DNA of 64,000 nt. It comes from Verrucomicrobiia bacterium. GTDB lineage: Bacteria; Verrucomicrobiota; Verrucomicrobiia; Verrucomicrobiales; DEV007. Below the pieces are notes generated by a model. It was not told where the DNA came from and did not search any database. It was given only the letters and a program-made list of their open reading frames with translations. The first letter of the stretch is position 1; every line of letters starts with the position of its first letter. Below are positions 2 through 46,330 of this stretch, piece by piece. The DNA lies in the NCBI GenBank assembly GCA_030425385.1, contig JAUIAH010000010.1:62001-126000 (forward strand), written 5' to 3'. The position numbers were made by a program, and so were the translations under genes.

Positions 2-2467
2 ACAGTCTTCATTCAACTGGCCAAGAAAGCGGCGGCCTTGCGCAACCCAGCCAGTCTCGCCTCATGGCTGTATCGTAGCGCCGTCCTCGAGTCCTTGCAT
101 CTGTTGCGCCGACGCAGCCGGGAAAGGAAGCATCGAGAGCGCCTCATGGAAGCGACAAGATCGCCGGATGAGCACGCTGACAGTTGGCGCGAAGTCATTC
201 CCTGCCTCGACATCGCCTTGAATCAACTCTCACAGAGTGACCGACAGATCATTCTAGCGCGGTTCTATCATGAACACAGCTATAGTGAGATCGCGGCCCA
301 CTTGCAGAAATCGGAAGCGGCTTGCCGCAAACAAATTTCCCGCGCATTGAAGAAGCTCTCGCGCCTCTTGAAAAGACAAGGAGTGCTCGCGTCGACAGCA
401 TTGTTAGCCCAAGGACTCCAGCCCGAACTCGCCGCGGCAAGCCCCGTGGGTCTGGTGGATGTCATCGAGGGACGGGTCGCCGATCTCTCTGGGCACAGCG
501 CGCTGTCGACAGTGAGTGCCTCTCTCATGGCTGCGATCTCCAGCAAGACGATGTTAGTCATCGTGGCCGGACTTTCCGCCGTGGCACCAGTCGTTGCCAG
601 CAAGCGCGAGACCCTGCACGATCAAACCTCGGCACCTGCCGCCTCGTATTCGGTCCTGCCTTCGACCCGTCTCGCCCCCCTTGTGAATGACACTGTCAGT
701 GTTGAGGATATCCTTGCCGCTCTCGGAACAGAGCAGTTGGCGCTCCTCCTGCGTTGGTTGCCTTCGGCCAGCAACGCCGACCTGGAGAGACTCGCCACAA
801 CCCGCCTGTCAATGTTGCAGGTAGAGGGTGTTGCGCTCAACTCTGTTAGCTTCTGGAGTCTTCTCTTTCAACGCTGGGTGACGTTGGATTCCCATGCTGC
901 CCTGACATTTGCCGAGGACTCCAAAAAGACGCTGCGTGGCCATCGCGGACAAGAACTCTTTGATCTGGAAATGATCTTTCTGGCCTGGGCCAAGGCGGCC
1001 CCCGATAAGGCACTGGCGGCTGCCGAGCAGCGCTCCGCACCATTGGTCGTGATCGTGCTCAATGAACTTCAGAACCGCGATCCTTGGAAAGTCATCGAAC
1101 TCAGTAAGCAACTCGATCCTGGCATTGCCTCCTTGATAAATTGGGGAGATCTCTTCGAGACACTGGCCAAGCGTGATCTGACAACCGCCACCGAAGCCGC
1201 TCAAGCCATGCCTCCGTCGCGAAATCAAGATCGCGCGCTCTTCGCCGTCGCCATGGCCACGATGGCATCCGATCCTCAAGCCGGTCTCGCCATGTTAGAG
1301 GGACGTTCGAGGGTTCCACTCCTACAGAAATGGTTGGCGGCCGATTGGGAAGGTGGCTTTCAAGCGATCCAAGCGGAACCGAAGTCTATCGGGAAACTCA
1401 CATTGATGCGTGAGACAGCTGGGGACTATTGGAAGCGCCATTCCGAAAAAGCCAAAGCCTGGGCCTTCGCGATCAAGGATCCCCAACTCCGCCGGGCTGC
1501 TCTATCCGGTCTCGCCGTCGCCGCAGCCGAGAGCGATCCACTCCAAGCCAAAGCCATCTTCGATGCCTTGGGATGGGATGTGCGAGACCCTGACGCGACC
1601 ACGAGTTATGTCTCAGGAGGCTCAGGACAGGTGAGAGGTTCTGTCGAAACACTCGAAAACGCCGCCCAACAGGTGATTACGGCTGTGAGCAAGTCAGACC
1701 GTCACGAAGCGCTGTCCTTGTTAGGCAATGTCAAGGGCATTGGGAACGAGCAACGCCTTCTCGACGTGATCGCCACGCCGTGGATGTCGGAAGATCGCCA
1801 GGGCTTTGAGAAAGCCATCCGCGCGCAGCCTTCCGGGAAGCTCCGCACATCGTTGGCCCGCTGGTATGCGAGTGCGTTAGTGTCTGACAATCCTAACGAA
1901 GCCCTGCAATGGGTGACGGAGAACGCGGCGCTCAGTGAAGAAATCGTGATACAACAGGTGTTCGGGGACTGGCAACAGTCCGATCCTCAAGCAGCAAGAG
2001 AGGCCTACCTGGACCATGAATTCCCCAATAGCGCATGGAAAGACGCCTGCTTTGAATCTGCCTTGAGGACCTCACTCAGTGATCCAGCTGATCTTGCCAA
2101 GCTGCAGGACTGGCTCGGCTCCCAAGCAGATCAATACGATCTCCCTCGGATCCATGAACGTTTGGGAAATGCCCTCGCTGAGCATGATCTTGAGAGTGCT
2201 GCCGCCTGGGTGGATCGCCTCGAACCCTCACAGGCTCGCCAAAGCGCCATCCAAGGCGTAGTCGAACAGCTCTTCAATGGAGAACACGCCAATCCCCAAG
2301 AAACACTCGCTTGGATCGAGCAACTTCCTGACAGTTCCACCCAACAGTTCTGGCTCAATCACCTTGCGAAGCAATGGATAACTACTGACGCCGAGACCGC
2401 CTTCGCCACGCTGCCGAACACCGCTTTGTCTGAACGCAACTTCAATCGCTTAGCTGGGAGGCACTAG
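2..2467 (+). CDS. ECF sigma factor fused to a membrane segment and a C-terminal repeat region (5' end outside window)
   Basis: The frame is open to the left edge, so the N-terminus is missing; the visible VFIQLAKKA matches the end of sigma region 2 in the paralogue at 5916-7838. Counting from the TTG at 38, region 4 with its helix-turn-helix (QSDRQIILARFY, then YSEIAAHLQKSEAACRKQISRALKKL split across two helices) spans residues 58-113. A hydrophobic stretch at about 170-188 could cross the inner membrane. The remaining ~600 residues are imperfect alpha-helical repeats of about 32-38 residues of the form W-A-x-x-D-P-x-A-A-L-x-W-L-x-x-L-P. I infer a membrane-tethered sigma factor with the repeats in the periplasm. 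The next gene starts one base after the stop. Sigma identity is secure; topology and the role of the repeats are inference. Confidence 0.85.
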   Translation, partial: TVFIQLAKKAAALRNPASLASWLYRSAVLESLHLLRRRSRERKHRERLMEATRSPDEHADSWREVIPCLDIALNQLSQSDRQIILARFYHEHSYSEIAAHLQKSEAACRKQISRALKKLSRLLKRQGVLASTALLAQGLQPELAAASPVGLVDVIEGRVADLSGHSALSTVSASLMAAISSKTMLVIVAGLSAVAPVVASKRETLHDQTSAPAASYSVLPSTRLAPLVNDTVSVEDILAALGTEQLALLLRWLPSASNADLERLATTRLSMLQVEGVALNSVSFWSLLFQRWVTLDSHAALTFAEDSKKTLRGHRGQELFDLEMIFLAWAKAAPDKALAAAEQRSAPLVVIVLNELQNRDPWKVIELSKQLDPGIASLINWGDLFETLAKRDLTTATEAAQAMPPSRNQDRALFAVAMATMASDPQAGLAMLEGRSRVPLLQKWLAADWEGGFQAIQAEPKSIGKLTLMRETAGDYWKRHSEKAKAWAFAIKDPQLRRAALSGLAVAAAESDPLQAKAIFDALGWDVRDPDATTSYVSGGSGQVRGSVETLENAAQQVITAVSKSDRHEALSLLGNVKGIGNEQRLLDVIATPWMSEDRQGFEKAIRAQPSGKLRTSLARWYASALVSDNPNEALQWVTENAALSEEIVIQQVFGDWQQSDPQAAREAYLDHEFPNSAWKDACFESALRTSLSDPADLAKLQDWLGSQADQYDLPRIHERLGNALAEHDLESAAAWVDRLEPSQARQSAIQGVVEQLFNGEHANPQETLAWIEQLPDSSTQQFWLNHLAKQWITTDAETAFATLPNTALSERNFNRLAGRH

Positions 2468-2468
2468 C

Positions 2469-4379
2469 ATGTTTTTATCATTGCCTCGCCTCATATTACG
2501 CTTGGTCGCCGCCTGTGTCATTGGATATTCCATCGGTCTTCTCGTGAGACAATGGCCATTAGGAAATCCGACAGAGTCTATCACCGTCACCGAAGAATCA
2601 TCTCGAACCGGCACATCACACCCGACGTCTCGATGGACGGGACTCATGCACCGCTTCCACGAAGGCCTCAGCATCCGTGAACAGCAACAGTTTGTCATGG
2701 CCTGCCAGCATGCGAATCCCTCTGAGCTGAAAGACCTTCTTGATCGTATCGAGTATTTCCGTGATGGCATTCAACACGCCTTCGCTTCCATTGCGCTCAA
2801 GCGATGGCTTGAGGTCGATGCTTCGGGAGCGCTCGCCTACGCCAATCAGCGCGGTGGACAGTGGCCTGGCTTGTGTATGCTGCAGTGGGCCGAAGTCGAT
2901 CTGCCAGCGGCTATTAAGGCGGTTCTAGAATCTCCATCAGCGAATTCCCAAACCAATTCCCGAAGATTCCAGTCAGAACTCGGTCGGAACGTTCGCGGGT
3001 TGCTACTTCTCAAAGTTGCGGAATCAGATCCTCTCGCAGCTCTCGAACTCAGTGACAAGATGCCTCTCACAGGTGCCGAAGCTCATCGGGCTTACAATAT
3101 CATCTTTCAAAGACTCAGCGCAAAGGACCCAAGCATCGCGGCGTCAACGCTCGATGCCGTGAAGGATCGAAATGCTAGGCAGATTGCCATGACCCAAATC
3201 ACCACCGAATGGGGGAAGCGCGATCCTGAGGCCGCGCTCGCGTGGCTACGGAAACAACCAGCATCAGCCATGGGGCTCTTCTCTCTCGGCAACGCTTGGG
3301 CCACTCATGATCCGCAAGCCGTACTTGCCCGGCTCGACGAACTGTCAGAGTACCCTGGAAGTCGTGCCACGCTCCTCGGCACGGCTCTCGCCACGTGGTG
3401 GGAGGACGATCCCACTGCGATGCAGATATGGCTAACAGATGCCGATTTGAATGAGAAAACCGCCCAGCGTGTACAGGCCAATCTCATCACAAAAGTCGCC
3501 GCATCCGACCCTGAAAGTGCCGCGATACTCAACTCCCAGGCAGTGGCCCAAGGGCACCCCTCACAAGAGCACGTGATTTTCCAATCGTGGGCCGAGGAAG
3601 ACCCTCACGGTGTGCTCGATTGGGCAAGCGCCCAGCCCAAAGGCGCCCCGAGAGACGATGGCATGCTCGCTGCCATCAGCGTTCTCAGCAAGCGCGATCC
3701 TGTCGCGATGCTAGAAGAGCTTCCCCTACTCGCCGAGACGATCGACTACTCAGGTGATTGGTGGAAGATGGAGATCGCCGGACCGCTCATGAAGGTTCTC
3801 TCAGCCCGAGGGCAGAAGGCTTCAGAAGACTGGATCAAATCGCTGCCCCCGCCCATTGGGAGAGAATTCTTGGAGGCCTACACGGGTCAATGGCAGTTCC
3901 GTGCCCCAAGTGAAACGCTCGCGTTTCTTCTAGAGCAGCCTCTCAGCGACGACTTGGTGAGCACGGCACAAGGCGTGCTCAGCGCTAAACTCGCCCGAGA
4001 AGATCCAGCCGCGGCAGCAGAAATCGTCACCGCTTTTGAAGACCAGCAAATGCGCGAGATCGGCACGCAGAATCTGATGTCCAGCTGGCTCTCGATTGAC
4101 CCCAATTCTGCGGAGGAATGGACGCTGACCCTCACCGATGCCCCCACCCGCGACAGCGCCCTAGCCATGCTCGCCAATCATGCTGCCGAACAGAATCTCG
4201 ACAAGGCCTTCGCCAAGCAGCTAGCCGATCCCTACGAGCGCCACGATGTCGTACGACAGCTCCTCCAGCGGGTGCACGATCAAGACACCGCCACCATCTA
4301 CGTCGATCAGGCAAACCTCTTAGAGGCAGATCGAGCCGCCCTCCTCTCTGGATGGAGATTTCGAACGAAATCCCCATAG
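2469..4379 (+). CDS. Membrane-anchored repeat protein, partner of the upstream sigma fusion
   Basis: A 636-residue protein with one N-terminal membrane anchor (residues ~6-26) and no cytoplasmic domain. The rest consists of the same helical repeats as the sigma fusion, with motifs such as WGKRDPEAALAWLRKQP, WATHDPQAVLARL and WAEEDPHGVLDWA at roughly 30-40 residue spacing. The ATG lies one base after the upstream TAG stop, so the two genes are probably translationally coupled and made in fixed ratio. I recognise no enzyme motif. The repeat style suggests a solenoid for protein-protein contacts, and the neighbour suggests it senses or titrates something in the periplasm together with the tethered sigma factor; that role is inference. 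Confidence 0.8.
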   Translation: MFLSLPRLILRLVAACVIGYSIGLLVRQWPLGNPTESITVTEESSRTGTSHPTSRWTGLMHRFHEGLSIREQQQFVMACQHANPSELKDLLDRIEYFRDGIQHAFASIALKRWLEVDASGALAYANQRGGQWPGLCMLQWAEVDLPAAIKAVLESPSANSQTNSRRFQSELGRNVRGLLLLKVAESDPLAALELSDKMPLTGAEAHRAYNIIFQRLSAKDPSIAASTLDAVKDRNARQIAMTQITTEWGKRDPEAALAWLRKQPASAMGLFSLGNAWATHDPQAVLARLDELSEYPGSRATLLGTALATWWEDDPTAMQIWLTDADLNEKTAQRVQANLITKVAASDPESAAILNSQAVAQGHPSQEHVIFQSWAEEDPHGVLDWASAQPKGAPRDDGMLAAISVLSKRDPVAMLEELPLLAETIDYSGDWWKMEIAGPLMKVLSARGQKASEDWIKSLPPPIGREFLEAYTGQWQFRAPSETLAFLLEQPLSDDLVSTAQGVLSAKLAREDPAAAAEIVTAFEDQQMREIGTQNLMSSWLSIDPNSAEEWTLTLTDAPTRDSALAMLANHAAEQNLDKAFAKQLADPYERHDVVRQLLQRVHDQDTATIYVDQANLLEADRAALLSGWRFRTKSP

Positions 4380-4756
4380 TGCCTACGACCACATCGCCGG
4401 ATACATCAGCAAGTACAGGGAAACGGCGAAGCCTGCCCCTTGGACTGCGTGCAGCCTGCTGCCGCTTTACCGAATGCAGCCCCGCTGCAAAGGCCACAGC
4501 AGTGGCGCGAAAAGAACCTGGATGGAGGTCAGACCCAGCCCATCCTAACATCGCGCCACATCTTCATCAACATCAATTAGCAAGAGCAGAGCGCATCTCC
4601 CTTGAGAGTCCGCCACTCTCCTTAGCCAACCAGGCCTCAGCACCTGCGGGATCTTGGCGTTTCCAATGCTCGAAGCGATACCGTGCCACTTCACGTGCCT
4701 CTTCCGTATGGTGCATTCGTTGGAGCACCTGAATCACAGTGTCGAATCCATGATAG
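4281..4756. repeat. Direct repeat, intact copy: meeting point of the two convergent operons
   Basis: This segment holds the 3' end of the plus-strand repeat protein, the ~190 bp gap between the convergent genes, and the 3' end of the minus-strand repeat protein. It is repeated in the same orientation at 7901-8278, with high identity outside one ~98 bp deletion. The gap itself (4380-4572) shows no gene. I saw no strong terminator hairpin with a T-run there. Confidence 0.85.
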
Positions 4757-5919
4757 GTATGGTTGGACAGATACTTGAGCGCGGCGTCATGCGACTCCGG
4801 ATAGGGAAGGCGTTCTACCCAGTCGAGTGCGCCTTGCCAATTCTCGCGGGCCAAGCGCTTGGCAATGGCCTCACTCGCATTCTCGTGGTGTCGTCCTGGA
4901 GGAATCGCCTCGATTAATGTCAGAGCTGTATCAACGGGAAACCGATCTGACGCAATGGCCATGGAAAGCCACTGGCCTTGCGTTGCTTCAGGAAGGAGCG
5001 CGGCCGCCTCCACCAGGGCCTGCGCATCGTGCCCGGCAGTCCAGTTGGTGGTAGCGCTAATGCAGCTTCCCTCGGAGACCAGATGCGGATACATCTCTAC
5101 GAAATGACGCATGGCTCCCTCGAGATCGTCTCGCGCCCACAGTCCAATAGCCCTACCAATGCCCTCGGTCACTCCCATCGATGCGATGCCTGCTAGAGCG
5201 GCGTGGGGATCCTGTTCGGCCCAAGCCTCCGAAGCCATGGCAAGAGCCATCTTTCGTGGGAAACCTGCCTCCAGCCGGAGGGCTCGGCGATAGGCTCCCT
5301 CTGGATCAATAGCCGCGTAGCTCTCCATGAGCACCTCGAAATAGCGATTTCTACTCTGTCTCCCTTCAAAGGAATCGACAAGGTCTAAGGCCCTAGCAGG
5401 ATCACGGCGCCCCAACGCCTTAATATAGGCCTCTAATCGGGGATCATGATCCGAAGGCGATTGCTGTAGCATCTCCATGATCTGAGCATCGGTCAATTCA
5501 AGAGAGATCAGGCCAGTGACACTGTCTTGAAATGCTTGAGGAAACCGTGCTAGAGCCGGTTGGAGCACTTCCAATCCACCGAGTTCCTGCAAGCGTTCAC
5601 AAGCAGCTCGAGCGACAAGCTCTCGAAAGTCATCCAACGCCATCGATGACAAACGCTCCAGGAGTTCTTCCGTGTGAGAGCGTGACATGGTGTAAACTTG
5701 GCTAACCAGTGAGGCCGATTCCCCTCGATCCAGATGCCAGACTTGAAGATCCAGCATTCTATCCAGCTCAACGGTGCCCTCATCTGCTCGTTCCAGTTCC
5801 GTTTCGGACGAAGGCGCACCCTTCCCATAACACAATTGCCATGTTCGATAGCCTTGAAACGCCATCACACCCACCAGCACCAAGAATAGAACCGCCCGCC
5901 ACCAGAGTTGCCCTTTCAT
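4573..5919 (-). CDS. Membrane-anchored repeat protein, partner of the minus-strand sigma fusion
   Basis: A 448-residue protein with an N-terminal membrane segment (residues ~8-22: AVLFLVLVGVMAFQG) followed by helical repeats such as WAEQDPHAALAGIASM and LARENWQGALDWVERLP. Its ATG overlaps the stop of the upstream sigma fusion in an ATGA arrangement, so translation is probably coupled. It mirrors the gene at 2469-4379 in position and architecture but is shorter and clearly diverged. The last ~60 codons are duplicated in a decayed copy near 8.1-8.3 kb. No catalytic motif is visible. Function is inferred only from the paired sigma factor. Confidence 0.8.
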   Translation of the reverse strand: MKGQLWWRAVLFLVLVGVMAFQGYRTWQLCYGKGAPSSETELERADEGTVELDRMLDLQVWHLDRGESASLVSQVYTMSRSHTEELLERLSSMALDDFRELVARAACERLQELGGLEVLQPALARFPQAFQDSVTGLISLELTDAQIMEMLQQSPSDHDPRLEAYIKALGRRDPARALDLVDSFEGRQSRNRYFEVLMESYAAIDPEGAYRRALRLEAGFPRKMALAMASEAWAEQDPHAALAGIASMGVTEGIGRAIGLWARDDLEGAMRHFVEMYPHLVSEGSCISATTNWTAGHDAQALVEAAALLPEATQGQWLSMAIASDRFPVDTALTLIEAIPPGRHHENASEAIAKRLARENWQGALDWVERLPYPESHDAALKYLSNHTYHGFDTVIQVLQRMHHTEEAREVARYRFEHWKRQDPAGAEAWLAKESGGLSREMRSALAN

Positions 5920-7838
5920 GGCAATCCTTCCTCCTTTGCCGTGTAGACTGCTCGGGCATCAATGGTGAGATCGCCACGGGTCCGCATGCGCCCCAGAAAG
6001 GCCTCAACGAGTGCATCGCTACCATTACTCTGGAGTAATGACAGCGCTTCCAGTGGCTCATGACGGCGAACGAAGGCGGCCTCCAATAGAAACGCGGACT
6101 GTTCCTCAGGTGCCAATACTTGGCCATATTCCATGACCTCGGCGGCGGTCAATCCCTGCGTCCGCTTCCCGAGTATCGGTGCCCCTGCCAGTCTCACGGA
6201 CCCGTCCTCCGTCTGCGAGATGACCCAATCGAAAGCATCGGAGAACGAATTTCTCGCGAAGACGTCAAGAGCACTGGTCACGGCACGCGTCCTGAAGCTG
6301 GCTTCTCCCACAGCAAGAGCAGCGCGCAACGCCTCATCCTGATTCTCCCTCGCATAGCGCAACATGACCTGGCCAACCGCTTCATAACGTTCTCGGTGAT
6401 CAGAAAGGGTGTTCACCCACTGCCAGGCTTGAACAGGATTCGCCCTCGCCCAGCCATCGACAATCTGGCGGAAGGCACTCCCTCGTTGGATCGGCTCATC
6501 GATCGAGTCTAACAGAGCAATCGCCGCCGATGGATTCTCTTTGGCGACACCCTGCAACAGTTTCGATTGAAGGTCATTGCGAATCCTCGGGGCCACCGGC
6601 AATTCGCGAATCGTGGCGAGCGTTTCTAGCGGGTGCACAAAACCCAAGGAATCGATCACCGCTTCGAGTGCCACCAATTCATGCCCATCATCCCAACCCG
6701 GGCCAAGCTCGCCGATCATTTGGAGAGCTCGATCTTTCGCGGCGTTCAGGTCGACCTTTCCCCAATAGAGAAACACCTCACGACAAAGCCCATCGGCACG
6801 TGCGAGACGTGAAACGGCCACCAGATCGGCCGCCTTTGGAAGATCGCTAGGATGGAGAGCATGAAGGACCTTCAGAAACTGGATCCTCGGTTTAAGGAGA
6901 TCAGGTCTTTTGATGCAGGATTCCAAGGCATGCCGGAAGGCGAGCAGGCTCCTGCTCTGATTCATGCCCCCCCTCTTCGCCAATCCGTCTAGCAGCGAGC
7001 GCCGTTTCTCACTTCGAACCTCTGCAACGCCACTCCCGCTTTCCAACTGAGCCGCGAGCATGTGATTCCCTATTGACTGACACATCACCACAATTCCGCA
7101 TGCGAGCACGCACCGATTCAGCACAGAGACAGGGCACACAGAAACGCTCCCCACTCTGGCAGCACCAATGATCTCGCGGACATCAAGCGGATGTCCACAC
7201 CTGGCAAATTCACTAGACAGACCAAGCGCTAGGGCTCCCACCGAAAGAGTCGTTCCACGCCTTTCTAACATCGCGCGTAATTTCTGAAGTAACCGCTGAC
7301 ACTGTTTCTCACACGCTGCCACGGACTTGCCTGTGATATCAGAAATCTCAGGAAAACTGCGCCCCTCGAAGAATCGCTGGAATAGGAATCGCATTTCTGA
7401 CAGAGTCAGCTGACCGATCACCTCATCCAGTGCCACAAGCGCCGTGTGAGGAAGTGACGGCTCATTCGGTGTTTGTCTCATCGCATTCTCATAAGCTACC
7501 AGTTTCCGCAGATGACGCCGTTCCCGCCGCCGAACCGCACGTGCTTGGTGAGACGTTGCGGTGTAGAGCCAAGGAGCCAACGCCGCATCCTTCCCCGCCA
7601 AACGAGGAGCTTTCTTCGCCAACGCCACAAAGACCTCTTGGCTCACCTCCTGGGCCAACTCTTCCTGCCCTGTGAGGCGAAGGGCGGTGTGGTGGACCAA
7701 GCCTCCATAACGTTCAAGCAAGACCGCCAATGCCCATTCGTCCGCCCCATCCGCGAAGCGTCTGAGCAGCACACAATCTGGAGGATCATCTCGGTTCACA
7801 CCAAGAACCTGCCAGAATACCCTGAATCCGGACAACAC
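5916..7838 (-). CDS. ECF sigma factor fused to a membrane segment and a C-terminal repeat region (complete)
   Basis: A 640-residue protein from a GTG at 7838; a second GTG at 7799 (product beginning MNRDDPPDCVLLRRF) gives a more usual ECF start and is the likelier one. From the first GTG, sigma region 2 covers residues ~35-105 (LLERYGGLVHHTALRLTG, VSQEVFVALAKKAPRLAG) and region 4 covers ~140-192 (FPEISDITGKSVAACEKQ). A hydrophobic segment at ~236-256 follows, then about 380 residues of weak helical repeats (WARANPVQAWQWVNTL, YARENQDEALRAALA). The order sigma - membrane segment - repeats equals that of the first gene, so this is a second complete copy of the same design on the opposite strand. 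It is coupled by ATGA overlap to the repeat protein downstream. Periplasmic placement of the repeats is inference. Confidence 0.85.
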   Translation of the reverse strand: MLSGFRVFWQVLGVNRDDPPDCVLLRRFADGADEWALAVLLERYGGLVHHTALRLTGQEELAQEVSQEVFVALAKKAPRLAGKDAALAPWLYTATSHQARAVRRRERRHLRKLVAYENAMRQTPNEPSLPHTALVALDEVIGQLTLSEMRFLFQRFFEGRSFPEISDITGKSVAACEKQCQRLLQKLRAMLERRGTTLSVGALALGLSSEFARCGHPLDVREIIGAARVGSVSVCPVSVLNRCVLACGIVVMCQSIGNHMLAAQLESGSGVAEVRSEKRRSLLDGLAKRGGMNQSRSLLAFRHALESCIKRPDLLKPRIQFLKVLHALHPSDLPKAADLVAVSRLARADGLCREVFLYWGKVDLNAAKDRALQMIGELGPGWDDGHELVALEAVIDSLGFVHPLETLATIRELPVAPRIRNDLQSKLLQGVAKENPSAAIALLDSIDEPIQRGSAFRQIVDGWARANPVQAWQWVNTLSDHRERYEAVGQVMLRYARENQDEALRAALAVGEASFRTRAVTSALDVFARNSFSDAFDWVISQTEDGSVRLAGAPILGKRTQGLTAAEVMEYGQVLAPEEQSAFLLEAAFVRRHEPLEALSLLQSNGSDALVEAFLGRMRTRGDLTIDARAVYTAKEEGLP

Positions 7839-7900
7839 CCACTAAATTCATGCCTCAAAGGCACCGAAAACGCCCTGCTTGTGCGCGCAGAATGCGGAAT

Positions 7901-8278
7901 CAAGACCCCGCCACCACCCATGTCGATCAGGCAAACCTCTTAGAAGCAGATCGAGCCACTCTCCGCCCGTTGGATTGCGTGCAGCCGCCGCCCCCCGGAC
8001 TGCCCCGCTGCAAAGGCCACAGCGTTAGCGCGAAAAGAACCTGGATGGAGGTCAAACCCAACCAATCCTAACATCGCGCCACCTCTTCATCAACATCAAT
8101 CAGCGAGAGCAGCACGCATCTCCCTTGAGAGTCCGCCACTCTCCTTCGCCAACCAGGCCTCAGCGCCTGCGGGATCTTGACGTTTCCAAGCTCGAAGCGA
8201 TACCGTGCCACTTCACGTGTCTCTTCCGTATCGTGCATATGTTGGAGCACCTGAATCACGGTGTCGAATCCATGATAG
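7901..8278. pseudogene. Decayed second copy of the convergent gene tails (duplication scar)
   Basis: The sequence follows 4281-4756 almost base for base, starting at the shared CAAGAC.CCGCCACCA and ending at the shared GTCGAATCCATGATAG. It lacks about 98 bp that include the stop region of the plus-strand gene. On the minus strand it still encodes a recognisable tail (VLQHMHDTEETREVARYRFE), but the frame shifts after RYRFE compared with RYRFEHWKRQDPAGAEAW in the intact gene. Neither tail is attached to the rest of its gene. It is best read as what remains of a second tandem copy of the locus, or as the product of a duplication that inserted or bracketed the minus-strand operon. Confidence 0.85.
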
Positions 8279-8315
8279 TCGTTCCGCCAACTGAGAAGTC
8301 GTGCCGTGCCTCACT

Positions 8316-8953
8316 TCCCCTTCGTTTCCTTCTGTTTCCATCTGTCCTCAATACCCGTTCCCTTTCTCGGGTTACAGCAGCGGTGGAACAGAAGAAATCA
8401 AAGGAACCGAAGGCTAGATTGCTTGGGTTGGACAGCGTTAGAGACTAATCTAAGAAGCCAAGATTTGGACCACAGATGGTCACAAATCAAGAGTGGTGCT
8501 GCGGGATCTGCTATCTGTGATAATCGGCGTTATCTGTGGTTTACTGAACTGCCGCGGATTGACCCGTTCCCTTTCTCGGGTTACAGCAGCGGTGGAACAG
8601 AAGAAATCAAAGGAACCGAAGGCTAGATTGCTTGGGTTGGACAGCGTTAGAGGCTGAGCTAGGAAGCCAAGATTTGGACCACAGATGACACAGATCGTCA
8701 CAGATCAAGAGTGGTGCTGCGGGATCTGCTATCTGTGATTATCGGCGTTATCTGTGGTTTACTGAACTGCCGCGGCTTGACCCGTTCCCTTCCTCGGGCA
8801 ACAGCAGCGGTGGAACAGAAGGAATCAAAGAAGACGAGGGCTAGATTGCTAGGGTTGGACAGCGTTAGAGGCTAGGCTAGGAAGCCAAAGTTTGGACCAC
8901 AGATGACACAGATCGTCACAGATTAAGAGTGGTGCTGCGAGATCTGTTATCGG
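8316..8953. repeat. Three tandem ~210 bp non-coding repeat units with internal inverted repeats
   Basis: Units begin at 8354, 8563 and 8781 with CCCGTTCCCTT(T/C)CTCGG, giving periods of 209 and 218 bp; the 9 bp difference is an extra ACACAGATC. Each unit carries GGAACAGAAGAAATCAAAGG, a GGTTGGACAGCGTTAGAG block, and a right half in which ACCACAGATG is mirrored by ATCTGTGGT after ~70-85 bp, so the RNA or single-stranded DNA could fold. The stretch 8316-8340 resembles the reverse complement of the GGAACAGAAG block, which suggests a truncated inverted copy at the left edge. No open frame is convincing. It resembles a miniature or REP-like element family, but no terminal inverted repeat with target duplication was proven. 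Confidence 0.8.
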
Positions 8954-9386
8954 TGGTTAAATAGGTGCCTCGAGATTGGCATCCTCGTTTCGCGCCAACA
9001 GTTCGGCGATGTCTCCGCAGCATCCAGGATGGCTTCAGGGTGACTCATGAGATCGCTTCGAAAGCGGCGTGGGCTGCAGTCCTGCAAACTTTGATTTCAT
9101 CCCCAGTGCTGCAAGTAGGCGTTCTTCCACTGATATCCGTCACACGCGCTCGGTTTCTGCCCTTAAAGAAGCCGTCACGCAGCCACTCGGCCGACGATTT
9201 CGCATGTCTGTTGGACGATTGGAAGCAGGCACATTGGGATTATCGCAAGTATGGGAGGGTTTGCAAATGAATCCCAACTGACACGTTTCGAGAAAGTCCA
9301 TGGGTCCCGTCGCTCGGTCGTCACGCTCGCCACGCGGCAGGAGGCACTTTTGTAAACGAATCCGTTCGGCGACTCCGTCTTTCTTG
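8954..9386. other. Gap of about 430 bp before the third sigma factor
   Basis: I see no convincing gene here. Short open frames exist (for example on the plus strand at 9069-9281, ending ...LQMNPN), but none shows a recognisable family or a start with a ribosome binding site. They could be chance or the end of a decayed gene. The promoter of the sigma factor that follows should lie in the last ~150 bp, but I could not pick reliable -35/-10 boxes. Confidence 0.4.
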
Positions 9387-9902
9387 ATGATGAACCAGCG
9401 CAAACGGCATCTCAGCCATCTCTACGATCTGCACGCGGAGGCCGTTTACGGCTTCCTTTTGCAGGTGGCTCAAGTGCCCGAAGATGCTCGCGATCTACTA
9501 CAAGAAGTGTTTCTGCGAGTCTCACAGAATCTGAAGCGCGTTCAAGGAGCGCGATCGCCGCGCGCCTATATCCTTAAGATTTCCTGGCACCTTCACCTCG
9601 ACCACAGTCGCCATCGACAGGCCCAGCAGCGTCGCGAACGACGTTTCATGGAGGAGCAACCGAAGATCTACGAAATCACCGAGGATCCCGATGCGCAGGC
9701 CTTTCGGCATCGGCTTCAGGAGATCATGGCCGCATTGCCACAGGAACAACGGGCCGTGGTTCATCTCCATCTTTGGGAGGATCTGACCTTTGATCGCATC
9801 GGAGAAACGCTCGGCATCAGTCCAAACACCGCTTCGAGTCGTTACCGATACGCCCTCACGAAATTGCGCCATCATATGAACACACTTCGCCACCAACTCT
9901 AA
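9387..9902 (+). CDS. RNA polymerase ECF-type sigma factor (stand-alone)
   Basis: A protein of about 171 residues from the ATG at 9387 (a second ATG follows at once at 9390). Region 2 is clear near the start (LYDLHAEAVYGFLLQV, ARDLLQEVFLRVSQNL, AYILKISWHLHLDHSRHR). Region 4 lies near residues 115-165 (LPQEQRAVVHLHLWEDL, FDRIGETLGISPNTASSRY). Length and domain order are normal for the family, unlike the two fused sigma factors to the left. An in-frame extension to 9300 has no family support. The next gene, 19 bp downstream, encodes a membrane-anchored protein that may be its regulator. The stop TAA sits in CTCTAAC, the recurring pentamer of this window. Confidence 0.9.
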   Translation: MMNQRKRHLSHLYDLHAEAVYGFLLQVAQVPEDARDLLQEVFLRVSQNLKRVQGARSPRAYILKISWHLHLDHSRHRQAQQRRERRFMEEQPKIYEITEDPDAQAFRHRLQEIMAALPQEQRAVVHLHLWEDLTFDRIGETLGISPNTASSRYRYALTKLRHHMNTLRHQL

Positions 9903-9921
9903 CTTTGATCCTAGTATAACT

Positions 9922-11025
9922 ATGCGAGATCTTGAGAAACTGATGCGGGCCACGCCTCTGCGCAAACCCGATCCAAGCTGGAAGGCGATCATCCTGAGCC
10001 GGAGTGTGGCTATCGACAGCGGATGGTCAATAGGTGCCAAAGCCGTTTCCTCTCTTGTCTTCGGAGGATGCCTCGCCTGGGGACTCACTAGTTGGCTCTG
10101 GCAAGATCCAGAGTCTAAGTCTCAAGACTCTCCAAGAGCGCATGAGACGAGAAAGGGCGTATCCACAGGATTGGTGTTAGAGAGGGGCCCAAGAGGGACA
10201 AGCCTGGATTGGGACGCTGCCTTGCTGAGCGAAGACGACGAGCGCTTCGATGAATGGCAGGATCCAAGGATCGATGTTGCCTTAGCCGATGTGCATGAGG
10301 TTCTCACCAAGTTCAAAGAAGCCACCTTGCGACGGCTACATTTTCCCGAAATCGTCCCACTCAAGCGTATTGGAATCACGGCGGAAGCCATAGCTGCAAG
10401 GGCGCATGTTGCCCTCGCAAGCGATGGTGAAGAGGAAGCGGCGCAGGCCTGGCAGGATTGCATGACTTTGTTTCGACTGACGCACCTTCTGCAACAGCGT
10501 CAGACCATGGACGCGAAGAAGCTTGCGGTGGGTATTGCGGGTATTGTCATCTTTCCCATCGGAAAAGGCTGGCGCGATCATCGCTGGACAGAAGCGCAAC
10601 TGGCATCATTGCAGGGCCACTTGTTAGGCCTGCGATCCTTGGAGGCAATCGCTGAAGTGGCTGCCCAGCAATCGGAAGCCTTCGAGATCTTCCAGGATAC
10701 ATGGGACCCGAAGTATCAGGTCTGGGTCGGGCTCACGAATGAAGATTGGCTCGCCCTGGGCGAGAAAGATCATTGGCTGCATCGCGTGATCACTGATTCG
10801 ATGGATGTTGATGGACGTGTCCGGCAGACGGCAATCATTCTCGCCTTGGAGCGCTATCACCGGCAGCATAGCGAACTGCCTGAGCAGATCGAGGACATCC
10901 TCTCAGAAATGCCCTACAATCCATGGACAGGAGCCCCTTTTGTCTATGAGAGGACGGGGCCTGATGAAGCACGCCTTGATGGATCGGAAGGATCCTGGAT
11001 GGCGTTCAGGCCCCACCACAACTAA
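9922..11025 (+). CDS. Membrane-anchored protein downstream of ECF sigma factor, possible anti-sigma partner
   Basis: A 367-residue protein with ~40 polar N-terminal residues, one membrane segment at about 43-60 (VSSLVFGGCLAWGLTSWL), and a large C-terminal part predicted outside the membrane. The topology (short cytoplasmic N-terminus, single span, long extracytoplasmic region) and the position 19 bp after an ECF gene are those of an anti-sigma factor, but no zinc-binding HxxxCxxC motif is visible at the N-terminus. The C-terminal part has a stretch seen in PVC exported proteins: a helix (RQTAIILALERYHRQH), then LPEQIEDIL, then NPWTGAPFVYER. A functional link to the sigma factor is inference. 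Confidence 0.65.
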   Translation: MRDLEKLMRATPLRKPDPSWKAIILSRSVAIDSGWSIGAKAVSSLVFGGCLAWGLTSWLWQDPESKSQDSPRAHETRKGVSTGLVLERGPRGTSLDWDAALLSEDDERFDEWQDPRIDVALADVHEVLTKFKEATLRRLHFPEIVPLKRIGITAEAIAARAHVALASDGEEEAAQAWQDCMTLFRLTHLLQQRQTMDAKKLAVGIAGIVIFPIGKGWRDHRWTEAQLASLQGHLLGLRSLEAIAEVAAQQSEAFEIFQDTWDPKYQVWVGLTNEDWLALGEKDHWLHRVITDSMDVDGRVRQTAIILALERYHRQHSELPEQIEDILSEMPYNPWTGAPFVYERTGPDEARLDGSEGSWMAFRPHHN

Positions 11026-35383: not shown

Positions 35384-38300
35384 CTACTTCCGCCGCACCC
35401 TAAAGTAGAGTTCAGTAAGCCCCTCAAGCGGGCCCGTCGCGACCGAGGTGGAATCGCCTTGGCTGGGAACATCTTCCAACCCTGGTTCCCAGTTGATCAG
35501 GTCTAACGAGGTGTCAACGTCGTAGGCCTCTCCAGGAATCGAATCCCAGGCGAGCGAGACTGCTCCTGTTTCCCGATCACGTTCAATGGTCCGGATGGCG
35601 AAGATTTGCCCAGGAATGTCGGCGGTGATGCGAATGTTATCCAGTGCCCACCACCAATCATTCCCCGCTTCTGTGAGGGCGAATGTAAGGACGACGGACT
35701 CGGCACCTTCCGGATTGCGGAGTGAGGTCGCGAAGCTTTCGTTGATAAAGGTGTCGTCGGGTTTGAAGTCTGGAGAGGCCTCGTCCGATTCGAAACGCGC
35801 CACTTCAAAGGGTTCTCCACCGTCAAAGACAGCCGTGACGACGCCCGTCTGATTGGCGTAAGGCCGCCAACTTGAATTGAATTGTAAGACAGCCGAGCCA
35901 GGCTGCGCGCTGCCTAACGGAATGGGGGCGGTTGTTAAGAAAGTGTTGAAAGTGCCAGGGGCGTGGCTCACATCGTCCCACTCATCGGGGTCGGCGATGA
36001 GGACAATGCCAGAGCCGCTATCAAATTCCGAGCGGCGTTGATCACCCGCGGTGCTTACCCACCAATCTTTGTCCGCGAAACTCCAACCTGCCCATTCGGA
36101 TACGCCGTCCAAATCGGGCCAACCATCACCATCAGCGTCTTCACTGTCGTTGCCCGCCATCTGACTGTTGTCGAGTGTCCATCCTTCAGGGGGCACATTG
36201 GTCCAGACCATCTCTCCGGCAACCCCTTCATCGACATTGGGTCCTAATGTCAGACTTTCAAAGTCTTGAGCATAGACGAGTCCGGTGCCCGGCAGCGGTT
36301 GAACGCTAAGCTTCACCTCGGCGCTGATCACTTCGCCAAAGGCGTTCGTGGCGCGCACACTGTAGAAGCCTTCATCGGACAGGCTGACGGCAGGCAACTC
36401 CAATCGGAAGTTGTTAGAATCCGCGATGGGCTCAGCTTCTGCAGTGCGATTGCTACGGAAACGCCATTCGTAGGTGATGGGCTCTTCGGCATCAATGACG
36501 ATTCCGAAGTTCACGTCTTCACCCACGTTGACGGTGTTGGGCAAGGGCTGGTCATTGATCAGGAGGGGAAAGACATCGAGGGTGACTTCTTGGCTGCTGA
36601 CGAGACCAAACTCATTGGAGATATCCACGCTATAGACGCCAGCATCCTCGAAAGTGGCTGACAAGATCACCAACTCAAAGGTTGCCGCGGTCGGGTTGTC
36701 CTCTGCGTTCATCGGAACTCGATCAGCGCCCGCACCTCGATACCATCGGAAGGTGAAGGGATCGGCGCCTTCTGGGACGGCAAAGAAACAGGCTTCATCG
36801 CCTGCGCTGACGGCGAGGTTCTGAGGCTGCTCCGTGATGAGCAACGGACCGACGATGAGCTGAGCCTCGCAGCTCGTTAGGGTGCCTACCTGATTGCTCA
36901 CATCAACGGTGTAGAAGCCCGTGTCTTCAACCGCGGCAACAGGAATCTCCAGCGCTGCTGAGGTGGCCCCATCAATGGCAGTCCGTTCGCCACCATCCTC
37001 ACTTCTATACCATTGGTAAGACACCGCACCCACAGTGTTCTCCAAGTCCACCTCGACCGCTAGCGCCGCGCTTTCGCCCGCGCTGACTTGCAGGTCATTG
37101 GGGTTGATGAGAATGGCAGGGGGCGCTGCGCCGGTGAAGACGAGCAAGTTATCGAGGGCCCACCACCAATCGTTGCCGGCATTGAGCAACTTGAAGGTGA
37201 GCTTCACGTTGGAAGCGCCTTCGGGGTTCTGCAGATCTACGGTGATCGATTCGCTTGTGGTATCTGGGCGATAGTATTCACTTTCTGCGGAAGACTCCAG
37301 CCTTAGGACTTCGATAGGATCAGCCCCGTCGTAGGAGGCTTCGATCAGTCCCAAGCTGCGGTCATAGGGCCGCCAACTCGAGTCGAATCGCAGTTTCACC
37401 GTCCCGGCCGCAGCTCCTTGCAAGGCGATGTCTCCCGTAGTGGCCACATTGTCCAATCGCACCTCGTCCGTGACCGGCGTGTGGGGCAAATCATCCCATT
37501 CATCTGGATCGGCAATCATCACTGCGCCACAGGCGCGCGTGAAGGTGGAACGTTGCTGATCGCCGGCGGTCTGCGACCACCAGTCCTTGTCTGCGAAACT
37601 CCAACCCGCCCACTCCGTGACCCCATCGAGATCGGGAATGCCATCACCATCGGCATCTTCTGAATCAATGCCAGGCACTCCACTGTCATCAAGGATCCAA
37701 CCTTCCGGCCCTCTATCAGTCCAGACGTTGGGGGCAGCCAATCCTTCATCAACATTGGGACCAAGTGGCAAGCGATCGAAGCCTTCGCTGTAGAGGATCT
37801 TGGAATTGTCTAACCCTTGCACCTCTAACGTGACCAGCTCGCTGAGAACTGGCGTGAGACCGGGGCCAGAGATCTCCACTGCGTAGGAACCGCCATCCGC
37901 CGCAGACGCAGCGGCAATCTCCAGGGTGGCTCCGGTGGCTCCAGCAAGCAGCTCGCCATCTTTCTGCCATTGATAGGATAAAACGCCCCCGTGCGCTTCC
38001 ACACCGAACGCAACCGCATCGCCAGGCAAGGTTTCGACCGGCACCGGTTGAGCAAGAATGACGATCTCGTTAGCGGTCACCTTGAGATTGTCGATGGCCC
38101 ACCACCAATTGTTGCCCGCCTCGTATGTGAATGATAGAGTCATTTCCTGAGCACCTTCCGGGTTACTTACAGGAAGGAAGACCGTTTCATTGATGCGGGT
38201 AGGGGTCGTGTCATCATAGCGGAGGATTTCCTCAGGCTCGCCACCATCGAAACTTACCGTCACCGCCCCTGTTTGCGGTTCGGCGTTCCAGCTAGAGTCG

Positions 38301-38740
38301 AACTGCACCACAATCGAGTTGGGTTGTGCCGATGCTAGTGAAATAGCAGGTGTGGTGAGCACCGTCTCCATGCGTGCGCCGGGACCGGAATCATCCCATT
38401 CATCGCCGTCGGCGACGAGAACCACTCCCGTGCCTTTGACGAAGCTGCTGCGGCCTTGCCCCGCAGTGGCGTTCCAAGAGACGGGATCGAGAAAGGTCCA
38501 TCCCGCAAATTCCGGCACGCCGCCTTCCGGGACATTCTCGTGATTGGCTTCCCAGCCTGCTGGCACGGCTTGCGTCCAATCAGTGCCGTCCCCGTTGGAT
38601 TCGGTGTCGGAGATCCAGGCCATCAATTCCGGCTCCAAGATATCAAAGTTCTCTTCAAACAGGATTTCAGCCTGACAAAGTCCCATGGCAACCAGGAATA
38701 AGATGAATGGCGTTCTCATGATACGGAGAAAGGGCGGCAT
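35384..38740 (-). CDS. Exported modular protein: three jelly-roll-like modules with Ig-like domains
   Basis: A protein of 1,118 residues from the ATG at 38740, or 1,111 from the ATG at 38719, which begins the signal peptide MRTPFILFLVAMGLCQAE. Three ~190-residue modules start with F(E)ENFD/EGFD/QDFE and end with the motif GN(D/N)WWWA(L/I)DN; the second and third carry a Ca-loop-like DSEDADGDGxPDLDG. Ig-like domains (YQWQKDGELLAGATGATLEI, TYEWRFRSNRTAEAE) separate them. The last ~65 residues (YDVDTSLDLINWE ... YFRVRRK) are shared with its neighbours. The start region lies inside a strong hairpin. Role: probable surface or matrix protein. Confidence 0.85.
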   Translation of the reverse strand: MPPFLRIMRTPFILFLVAMGLCQAEILFEENFDILEPELMAWISDTESNGDGTDWTQAVPAGWEANHENVPEGGVPEFAGWTFLDPVSWNATAGQGRSSFVKGTGVVLVADGDEWDDSGPGARMETVLTTPAISLASAQPNSIVVQFDSSWNAEPQTGAVTVSFDGGEPEEILRYDDTTPTRINETVFLPVSNPEGAQEMTLSFTYEAGNNWWWAIDNLKVTANEIVILAQPVPVETLPGDAVAFGVEAHGGVLSYQWQKDGELLAGATGATLEIAAASAADGGSYAVEISGPGLTPVLSELVTLEVQGLDNSKILYSEGFDRLPLGPNVDEGLAAPNVWTDRGPEGWILDDSGVPGIDSEDADGDGIPDLDGVTEWAGWSFADKDWWSQTAGDQQRSTFTRACGAVMIADPDEWDDLPHTPVTDEVRLDNVATTGDIALQGAAAGTVKLRFDSSWRPYDRSLGLIEASYDGADPIEVLRLESSAESEYYRPDTTSESITVDLQNPEGASNVKLTFKLLNAGNDWWWALDNLLVFTGAAPPAILINPNDLQVSAGESAALAVEVDLENTVGAVSYQWYRSEDGGERTAIDGATSAALEIPVAAVEDTGFYTVDVSNQVGTLTSCEAQLIVGPLLITEQPQNLAVSAGDEACFFAVPEGADPFTFRWYRGAGADRVPMNAEDNPTAATFELVILSATFEDAGVYSVDISNEFGLVSSQEVTLDVFPLLINDQPLPNTVNVGEDVNFGIVIDAEEPITYEWRFRSNRTAEAEPIADSNNFRLELPAVSLSDEGFYSVRATNAFGEVISAEVKLSVQPLPGTGLVYAQDFESLTLGPNVDEGVAGEMVWTNVPPEGWTLDNSQMAGNDSEDADGDGWPDLDGVSEWAGWSFADKDWWVSTAGDQRRSEFDSGSGIVLIADPDEWDDVSHAPGTFNTFLTTAPIPLGSAQPGSAVLQFNSSWRPYANQTGVVTAVFDGGEPFEVARFESDEASPDFKPDDTFINESFATSLRNPEGAESVVLTFALTEAGNDWWWALDNIRITADIPGQIFAIRTIERDRETGAVSLAWDSIPGEAYDVDTSLDLINWEPGLEDVPSQGDSTSVATGPLEGLTELYFRVRRK

Positions 38741-38755
38741 ATCTGCCGCCCTTTC
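38728..38755 (-). terminator. Strong hairpin between two giant genes, overlapping a start codon
   Basis: A 12 bp perfect stem (GAAAGGGCGGCA / TGCCGCCCTTTC) with a 4-base loop lies 31-58 bp after the stop of the 2,436-residue gene on the minus strand. It is probably that gene's transcription terminator, since the stem ends in A's and T's, though no T-run follows. The same stem covers the AAAGGG Shine-Dalgarno-like sequence and the ATG at 38740 of the downstream gene, so it could also gate translation. Confidence 0.7.
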
Positions 38756-38785
38756 GAGGTTGAATAGGTGATCTTTCTGTAGCGT

Positions 38786-41700
38786 TTACTGAACTCCGCG
38801 GTAGTAGCCGTCGAGGTTAGCCGCCCGGGCGGCATCGCTCTCCTCGAAGGAGCCGGTCACGCCCGTCGCGATCGTTTCCCAATCAATCAGGTTCGTAGAG
38901 AACTGAATGTCGTAACTCTCGCCCTCAGGAATGTTGATCGAGAGGTTGCCGTTGGCCCCGATGCTCACAGGGCCAAACTCAACGATCCCCGTTGGTCCGC
39001 CAGGCGTCTCACCCCCGACCGGCCCACCCGGAAGGAGAAAGCGATCTGCCAATCCTTTGATCTGGGTGGCACCGAGCGCAGAATCGTAGATCGCCACGTC
39101 GTCGATTTCACCGTTGAAGAAGTTGCCCTCCGCATCGTAGATGCCACCGCCTCCGATGTTGAAGCCGAAGTCAGACTCACCCGCTGGAGCAGGTTCGGCA
39201 GACATGACCGCTTCTCCGTTGACATAGAGTGTCCTACCATTGATGTCATTGGCGACCGCAATGTGCGTCCACTCAGGAGCACCATCGAAGGTGTAATCTA
39301 ACGCTCCGACAATCGGCATCCAGTGCTGAATCGTGGTGGCATTGATCATGCCGAACTCCACGGAATCATTCTGACCAAAGAAGCCCGTTCGATCGGCTTG
39401 AGTTTCATCAAACCTGACCCACCCGGCAAAGGTGAAGGCTTGCGATGCACTCACCGATGCCGCTGTGCTAACATAGTCATCCACACCATCAAAGCTCATG
39501 GCGAAGTCGCCAGCTTCACCGGAATGTCCCGACACATAGCTCGGCTCTCCATTCACCATGCCATCGTTCCTACTAGCACTACCATCAGCAGTCGTCGCGG
39601 CCCCCTGATCGTCGAAGGACCAGTAACCGATGAGGCCGGGGATACCGGCACCTTCGACATTGGCCGTCACTTGCAGGTTATCGATGGCCCACCACCAATC
39701 ATTGCCAGCATCGATGAGGCCGAAGGTGATAACCACGTTCTCAGCGCCTTCGGGATTGAGAAGGGCCACGGTGAGGCTTTCATCAATGAACTCTTGGTCC
39801 GGCTTGAAGTCAGGTGAGTTGGAATCCGATTCCCAACGCAAGACCTCGATCGGCGCACCACCATCGTAGGAGACGCGGATGACAGCCGTCTGGTTGTTGC
39901 CACCAGGGACGTCGTTATCTGCCTCGGGACGCCAACTGGAGTCGAGCGCCAACACGGCGCTCCCAGCTGCCACCTTTTCCAAGGAGATCATTGGCGTGCT
40001 CATGAAGGCATCAAACCCATCGCCCTGCATGAATGGCGTGTGACTATCATCATCCCACTCATCGGGATCCGCGACGGCGACGACGTTCATGCCTTTCGTG
40101 AAGCCAGATCGCTGCTGGTCGCCTGCGGTATTGGTCCACCAAGCCGCGTCCGTAAAGGCCCATCCGGCCCACTCGGTCACCCCGTCAAGATCGGGAATGC
40201 CGTCGCCGTTCTCGTCTGCGCTATCAAAACCAGGAACCCCACTGTCGTCCACGGACCACCCACTTGGCGGCGTATCCGTCCACACCGCGTCACCGGCCAC
40301 ACCTTCATCAATGTTAGGCCCGAGGTCCACGCCGTCGAAGTTCTCAGCGAAGATGACAGAACTTCCTGTCGGAGGTTGCACCGTGAGTTTCGCATCACGG
40401 CTCGTGATTTCGCCAAATTCGTTGACAGCCTTCACGCGGTAGAAGCCCACATCGGAAAGCTGGGCATTGGCAATCTCCAATCGGAAGCTCGTCGCGCCTT
40501 CAATGACGGTGTACTCCGTTCCACCAAGAGGACGAAACGACCACTCGTAGGTCACTGGCTCTTCGCCATCCACGGCTACGACGAACTCAGCCATACCCCC
40601 TAACATTGCCGTCGTCGGTTGGGGTTCCCCTTCTCCCGGAGGTGAGAAGATGATGGGCTCGACATCGAGGAAAGCCTCCGCGCTGGCCACCGTGCCAAAC
40701 TCATTGCTGATCTCGACGCTGTAGTAGCCCTCATCATCGAACGTCGCGCTGTCGAGGACGACCTCGAAAAGCCCGGCGGTAGGATTGGCGTTCGCATCAA
40801 TGGGTGTCTTGCCTTCGCCTTGGCCCTTAAACCACTGATAGGTGAAGGGACGCTCACCTTCCGCATCGACAAAGAAGCAAGCTTCATCGCCAGCGCTCAC
40901 TAACAGATCAGTAGGTTGCAGCGTGATGATCAACGGACCGACGATCAACTGTGCCTCACAGCTGGTCACCGTGCCAGGCTGGTTGGTGACGTCGACCGAG
41001 TAGAAACCACTATCCTCTACCTGCGCGCTCTCGAACGACAGGGTCGAAGAGGTGGCTCCTTCGATGGCTACGCGATCGCCATCGGTGCGCTTGTACCATT
41101 GATAGGTCACATCTCCCAGCGTATTGGCAGTGTCGACTTCGACGCTGATCTCTGCAGGACTGTTGGAAAACACCTGCTGACTCACAGGAGGCGTCAGAAT
41201 GGAAGGCGGCTCGAGACCAGAGTAGACGAGGAGATTGTCGACGGCCCACCACCAGTCATTCCCCGCATCGATCAGGCCGAACTCGATCTTCAAGTTCTCA
41301 GCGCCTTCTGGGTTGTCTAACTGAAGCACCACGACCTCATTTGTCTCATCAGGCTTGAAGTTCGGAGAGCCACCGTCGGACTCCCAACGCATGATCTCCC
41401 TCATCTCGCCGCCATCGTAGGAGACGCGAATGACTGCCGTCTGGTTGTTGCCACCGGGAACATCATTGTCGGCCTCGGGACGCCAGCTCGAATCGAAACG
41501 CATCTTCAGGGAACCCGTGGTGACTCCTGTTAGAGAAATATCAGGCGTGGTAATGAAGGCATCATACCCGTCGCCTTCGGTAAACGGTGTGTGCGCGGAG
41601 TCATCCCACTCGTCGGGGTCGGCAATCATCACCGCGCCACAAGCGCGGGTGAAAGACGTACGCTGCTGGTCGCCAGCGGCCAAGGCCCACCAACGGGGCT

Positions 41701-46096: not shown

Positions 46097-46330
46097 GAAG
46101 AGTGAGGTGGTTAAGCCTCACCCATAAGAAACAACTTCAATATCCACATGCGGAATCAGATGACGATTTCGACTAACTAACTTGTTAGGCAATTTCTTCA
46201 GATAGCGCCCGCAATTCATCCTCATACGTCACAGAAACATCAGTGACAAGAACGCCTCATTCCTCCCGGCCAATCCTCACAGAAACGTTGCATCACGTTT
46301 CCTGTCAATGAACCATCCGCAACCAAACCC

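Follow-up and report, generated by a model that had tools for sequence, protein, structure and literature searches.

The window, i.e. the whole stretch of DNA analysed (64,000 nucleotides, positions 62001-126000 of its contig), belongs to an 8.0 Mb Verrucomicrobiota assembly and encodes, at its left end, two convergent two-gene operons (A-B and D-C; Table 1). Gene A is cut at its 5' end by the window edge, its start lying 203 nt to the left of window base 1; the full-length gene (L001:5798-8467) encodes 889 aa, and the window holds its 3' 821 codons. In both operons the two genes are tightly spaced: 1 bp separates the stop codon of A (2465-2467) from the ATG of B (2469), the stop codon of D and the ATG of C overlap as ATGA, and ribosome-binding-like sites (GGGAGG, AAGGAGG) precede both partner starts. 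The places of all four genes, the sigma-membrane-repeat order and the coupling, by 1 bp or ATGA, to a second anchored repeat protein had been described in an earlier note on this DNA and were confirmed here. The same note described the operons as mirror images. They are indeed convergent, but this is not a special design, as similar modules recur across the genome; adjacent fusions come in all orientations, and a conserved mirror arrangement was rejected. With about 23 such fusions in the genome, 15 of them followed by a coupled repeat partner, the facing arrangement is considered incidental. Over the sigma domain and the transmembrane (TM) helix, A and D are about 36% identical, and neither is a recent duplicate of the other.

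Table 1. Features of the two operons and of the adjacent remnant (window coordinates)
Feature	Position	Strand	Basis or remark
Gene A, ECF sigma - TM - alpha-solenoid fusion	2..2467	+	gene calls, Pfam
A, sigma region 2 (partial in window) and region 4	2..358	+	Pfam
A, internal in-frame ATG (MAAISSK), just before TM	527..529	+	candidate internal or fossil start; weak mRNA signal
A, transmembrane helix (SKTMLVIVAGLSAVAPVVA)	542..598	+	hydropathy, insertion energy
A, tail with helical repeats (8 units detected), inferred periplasmic	599..2464	+	repeat profile; topology from homologues
Gene B, partner of A, N-terminal membrane anchor and alpha-solenoid, 636 aa	2469..4379	+	
B, N-terminal anchor helix, model residues 5-28	2481..2552	+	
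Gene C, partner of D, N-terminal anchor and solenoid, 448 aa	4573..5919	-	
C, N-terminal anchor helix	5857..5913	-	
Gene D, ECF sigma - TM - alpha-solenoid fusion, 640 aa	5916..7838	-	
D, solenoid tail, two-helix repeats	5919..7082	-	profile; pLDDT mostly about 85-95 (residues 300-620)
D, transmembrane helix (VCPVSVLNRCVLACGIVVM)	7083..7139	-	hydropathy, insertion energy; low-confidence model helix 239-264
D, sigma regions 2 and 4, residues 40-187	7278..7721	-	Pfam; region 2 model
Remnant copy of B 3' end and C 3' end (4279-4756)	7899..8278	.	89-93% identity, three blocks

The N-terminal parts of A and D fit ECF sigma factors of the two-region type within the sigma70 family, which have region 2 and region 4 only. 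Indeed, Pfam recognised in A both Sigma70_r2 (41.0 bits; cut-off 24) and r4_2 (49.4 bits; cut-off 25.7), and in D region 2 (41.1 bits) and a region 4 scoring slightly below the same cut-off (r4_2, 23.3 bits). Furthermore, the region 2 model of D resembles E. coli sigmaE (4lup; Z 13.1, rmsd 1.9 over 91 residues), and SigW and SigK are also among the structure matches of the D model.

The sigma domain and the predicted TM helix are connected by some 37-60 residues of linker, which is rich in Ala and has a moderate hydrophobicity (mean KD about 0.9). Throughout the family (e.g. window positions 359-526) it includes a conserved stretch after sigma4, RRGvtstaAALaaaLaaqavxAAPAGLA, which resembles a signal peptide with an AxA site, yet is poorly hydrophobic. 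Topology was surveyed in 177 distinct fusions with a tail of at least 150 aa, taken from this genome, relatives and named Verrucomicrobiota genomes. A hydrophobic peak is located 40-69 residues after sigma region 4 in 149 of the 177, and hydropathy drops sharply past the helix, to about -0.5; the position of the KD peak alone was counted as evidence and its height was excluded, because shuffled linkers reach the same height. The sigma side of the helix carries a net charge of +1.05 and the tail side one of +0.30 (Wilcoxon p 1.8e-7), and the median insertion energy, an approximate value, is -0.35 kcal/mol for the helix versus 3.0 kcal/mol for the preceding linker. The families found after the equivalent helix in homologues are TonB_C (14/82 tails), CarboxypepD_reg (7), Big_1 (7), SLBB (3) and Poly_export (1). 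As relatives carry periplasmic domains past the same helix, an extracytoplasmic location of the tails of A and D is well supported by these comparisons. A hairpin topology with two spans was also considered and rejected on the basis of the insertion energies and of the periplasmic domains in relatives.

The tails and the partners are built from the same repeat unit of about 27 core residues, EALAALAEAWARSDPEAALAWLEELPD, obtained with an iterative profile. This profile detected 132 units in the tails and partners of the 23 own-genome fusions versus 2 in ten shuffle rounds, and BLAST matches link tails and partners (D tail-B, 2e-9; B-C, 8e-8). The unit has no match in Pfam, and A-D match no Pfam repeat family, including the PPR/TPR motif. 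The structure model of D (17 sequences, mean pLDDT 77.6) contains a confident two-helix solenoid, with residues 215-293, linker and helix included, below pLDDT 50, and the model of B (mean pLDDT 78.0) consists of the anchor helix and a solenoid. The solenoid models match PPR solenoids, which like TPR proteins are right-handed superhelices of two-helix units, at Z of about 11-12 with a large rmsd, a level possible from a common arrangement alone; matches to PPR proteins, karyopherins and the like were not taken as homology. A sigma domain tied to the membrane and carrying periplasmic repeats, with an anchored partner made from the same repeats, had been proposed before the present analysis. The single predicted helix, the periplasmic domains of homologues, the N-terminal anchors of B and C and the BLAST and profile matches all agree with this proposal, and neither a lack of membrane segment between sigma domain and repeats nor homologues with cytoplasmic repeats were found.

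The pairing of fusion and partner is frequent. A same-strand gene lies close downstream of 133 of the 163 untruncated fusions, 90 of these 133 genes begin with a hydrophobic anchor, and the 4-base ATGA overlap is the commonest spacing (31/133). Across 42 repeat-bearing modules, tail similarity follows partner similarity (r 0.87; partial 0.79 given sigma); after removal of close pairs, the covariation gives a Spearman coefficient of 0.26 (permutation p 0.0005), and tail and partner lengths are also correlated (0.46, p 0.01). This covariation, for part of which linkage alone could account, is compatible with contact between the two solenoids.

Several features adjoin the operons. The remnant copy just upstream of D is what is left of a tandem duplication, about 3.6 kb long, that has since decayed. 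It is followed by three tandem copies and a partial fourth of a 218-nt intergenic repeat (8262-8955), and then by an ordinary soluble ECF sigma gene and a 367-aa protein without Pfam match (9300-11025), a layout adjoining the fused modules that resembles the usual sigma/anti-sigma pair. Farther along, the window encodes very large proteins with I-set/Ig and Laminin_G domains, one of them with an IgGFc_binding domain (35384-50335), and a protein of more than 4500 aa with Calx-beta, RTX repeats, SdrD_B and CarboxypepD_reg domains (50361-63998), which is probably a giant surface adhesin.

At the scale of the genome, 90 matches to Sigma70 region 2 and 133 matches to the partner profile were found, and 23 of the 24 long sigma ORFs examined show the sigma-TM-tail layout (15/23 then with the coupled repeat partner). 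Outside these operons, 20 further regions encode about 30 repeat proteins; nearly all of them begin with a hydrophobic segment, and a lipobox is found in none. With about 23 such fusions in one genome, the sigma-TM-solenoid proteins form an extensive signalling family, as yet uncharacterised, rather than an isolated case. A single-protein scan with A found no relative in named genomes, and a plasmid search with one paralogue (L017) gave no match. Other tails were encountered as well: (i) an ECF-TM-TonB_C fusion (L067:5947-7419) adjoined by a convergent TonB-dependent receptor-like gene (7834-10980), (ii) ECF-TM fusions (L068, L079, L097, L103, L128, L134) with 700-900 aa of carboxypeptidase-regulatory-like and Ig-like domains past the helix, and (iii) an ECF-TM fusion with an RCC1-like beta-propeller tail (L086:6727-7899). 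In total, 14-15 sigma-TonB fusions were found, mostly in Opitutaceae and related groups; a receptor gene is adjacent to TonB_C fusions at 2/14 loci versus 1/62, numbers too few to weigh.

The earlier note set these proteins against ECF sigma factors that are normally soluble and held by a separate anti-sigma factor. The fusion of sigma domain and membrane segment holds, but not its novelty, as membrane-fused ECFs are already known (ECF48, ECF52, ECF53 and IutY; PMC8999054). ECF52 (SCO4117), ECF48 and ECF53 of Actinobacteria share the C-terminal fusion, one or two TM helices and an extracytoplasmic part, and are expected to be freed by proteolysis (PMC8999054). However, in these groups a zinc-finger anti-sigma domain precedes the helix, whereas Pfam detected no zinc-finger family in the 22 own-genome fusions; moreover, the ECF52 tail is proline-rich and carbohydrate-binding, in contrast to the alpha-solenoid tail and coupled solenoid partner described here. 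IutY of Pseudomonas putida (ECF243) has sigma factor and membrane regulator on a single chain, which Prc/RseP activate by proteolysis (PMC8999054), and its TonB-linked signalling resembles the ECF-TM-TonB_C relatives, but it has a fused FecR-like anti-sigma part. A and D showed no such part, the FecR family having no Pfam match in the window proteins or own-genome fusions. ECF57 and related planctomycete ECFs also belong to the PVC group, have long repeat tails and are strongly expanded (PMC8999054, PMC8567305). Their tails are WD40 beta-propellers, whereas those described here are alpha-solenoids, and WD40 has no Pfam match in the window proteins. Conserved cysteines link regions 2 and 4 in ECF57; in A and D, cysteines are present close to the beginning of region 2 and within region 4, at positions not conserved in the paralogues. 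In the planctomycete Tuwongella immobilis, where most ECFs have WD40 tails, ECFs were detected experimentally in the fractions soluble in Triton and SDS (PMC8567305), an independent observation in favour of the module proposed below. Finally, ECF42 combines a sigma factor with an alpha-helical TPR repeat tail proposed to act by protein contact. The tail is likewise helical here, but ECF42 tails are not described with a TM helix such as that of A and D, and no TPR family was matched by Pfam in the window proteins or own-genome fusions. What is new here is the combination: the anti-sigma zinc finger is missing, the solenoid belongs to no named family, the fusion is paired with a partner, and paralogy is huge. 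The descriptions in PMC8999054 would set A and D apart from the nearest ECF groups, although they could fall under an existing ECF group number.

A further feature of the fusions is a conserved M[ST]xxK motif, seen in the linker alignment directly before the helix. Met occupies this position in 124 of 156 fusions (background 25%) and is nearly always followed by the Lys (93% vs 18%); the base after the ATG is A in 78% (vs 24%), and Ser codons at the same spot are AGY in 37/40 (vs 35%). A minimum of mRNA structure is centred on this Met (-2.6 and -4.5 kcal/mol vs -10 to -14 in the flanks); it exceeds synonymous shuffles (z about 0.7), is like that at true partner starts, is absent at control membrane helices and is present in both subgroups. 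Over the whole family, codon usage and mRNA structure at this point thus resemble those of a translation start. Within the solenoid subgroup, however, the third-position signal does not distinguish members with the Met from the others. As for the window pair, A has the Met (-8.0 kcal/mol) without a clear structural valley, and D has neither the Met nor the signal. Shine-Dalgarno sequences are uninformative at the internal Met, as the surveyed partner starts are likewise not enriched over internal Mets, and for a frameshift at ATGA the alternative frame is open upstream for a median of 12.5 codons only. Many fusion genes could, with somewhat less than an even chance, make two proteins, i.e. the full sigma-TM-tail chain and a sigma-less anchored tail from the internal ATG. 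The latter would share the layout of the partner or, in the TonB_C relatives, be a stand-alone TonB-like protein. One gene giving two in-frame products is known, for example in phage endolysins (PMC9430671). Alternatively, the internal Met could be left over from a formerly separate gene that began there. Should the internal start prove genuine, receptor and sigma-less competitor would both come from a single gene.

Taken together, each operon could encode a two-gene membrane signalling module with a tethered sigma domain and a paired solenoid sensor, in which the sigma domain is released most likely by proteolysis; we assign this reading a probability of about 0.55. The first gene would provide a cytoplasmic ECF sigma domain, the linker, one TM helix and a periplasmic alpha-solenoid, and the translationally coupled second gene another periplasmic solenoid from this repeat family, held by a separate N-terminal anchor. 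Attachment to the inner membrane would keep the sigma domain from RNA polymerase, although tethering alone may be insufficient to silence it, and no recognisable anti-sigma domain was found in the linker. The paired solenoids would bind an envelope ligand or protein and act as one sensor, and binding would trigger sigma release, most likely through a periplasmic site-1 cleavage and a site-2 cleavage in the membrane helix. The genome has genes for M50 site-2 proteases, which is compatible with proteolytic release; M50 is nearly universal, being present in 14/14 control genomes as well. Different tails would receive different inputs, which would explain the presence of about 23 parallel modules in one genome.

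The main rival to proteolytic release, although unlikely, is that the sigma domain acts uncut while tethered, as in one-component regulators of the ToxR/CadC type, the solenoids altering how far it is exposed or how it oligomerises. In favour of this, no cleavage motif was found, the long Ala-rich linker could give the necessary reach, and ECF42-type tails are thought to work by protein contact without cleavage (PMC8999054); however, proteolysis is the presumed means of activation in the nearest studied membrane-fused ECFs (IutY and, indirectly, SCO4117; PMC8999054). It is improbable that the partner is a disguised anti-sigma factor from a drifted canonical pair. The layout, an ECF tightly coupled with a single-span membrane protein, is the canonical one, but in canonical pairs the membrane protein has a cytoplasmic anti-sigma domain, whereas B and C have none according to Pfam and fewer than ten residues ahead of their anchors (MFLSLPRL and MKGQLWWR), leaving therefore no room for such a domain. 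The partner thus cannot be a conventional anti-sigma factor; furthermore, the sigma domain already has its own anchor. Still less credible is that the sigma domains are decaying passengers of ordinary envelope solenoids without a signalling role: divergence is fast (own-genome fusions are 18-27% identical to A), region 4 of D falls just short of its Pfam threshold and a decayed duplicate adjoins D, but sigma regions can still be recognised in 21-22 of the 22 paralogues of this genome and across the phylum, and comparison of the paralogues shows that regions 2 and 4 retain conserved residues. Equally implausible is an amphipathic or hairpin element with cytoplasmic solenoids, for which the Ala-rich linker and a peak height not clearly above that of shuffled sequence could speak, but against which stand the periplasmic families after the same helix in relatives, the separation of linker and helix by insertion energy, and the N-terminal hydrophobic anchors of nearly all stand-alone repeat proteins of the genome.

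The proposed module of tethered sigma domain and paired solenoids bears on a group with a cultivable relative, Verrucomicrobium spinosum, for which an essential-genome study has been published (PMC12283558). As relatives use TonB, Ig-like or polysaccharide-export domains, the inputs of such modules may be readable from their tails. The findings point to a major signalling route into transcription in Verrucomicrobiota that would bypass anti-sigma factors, the sigma factor itself being the transmembrane receptor, with about 23 such receptors carrying interchangeable extracytoplasmic tails in a single genome.
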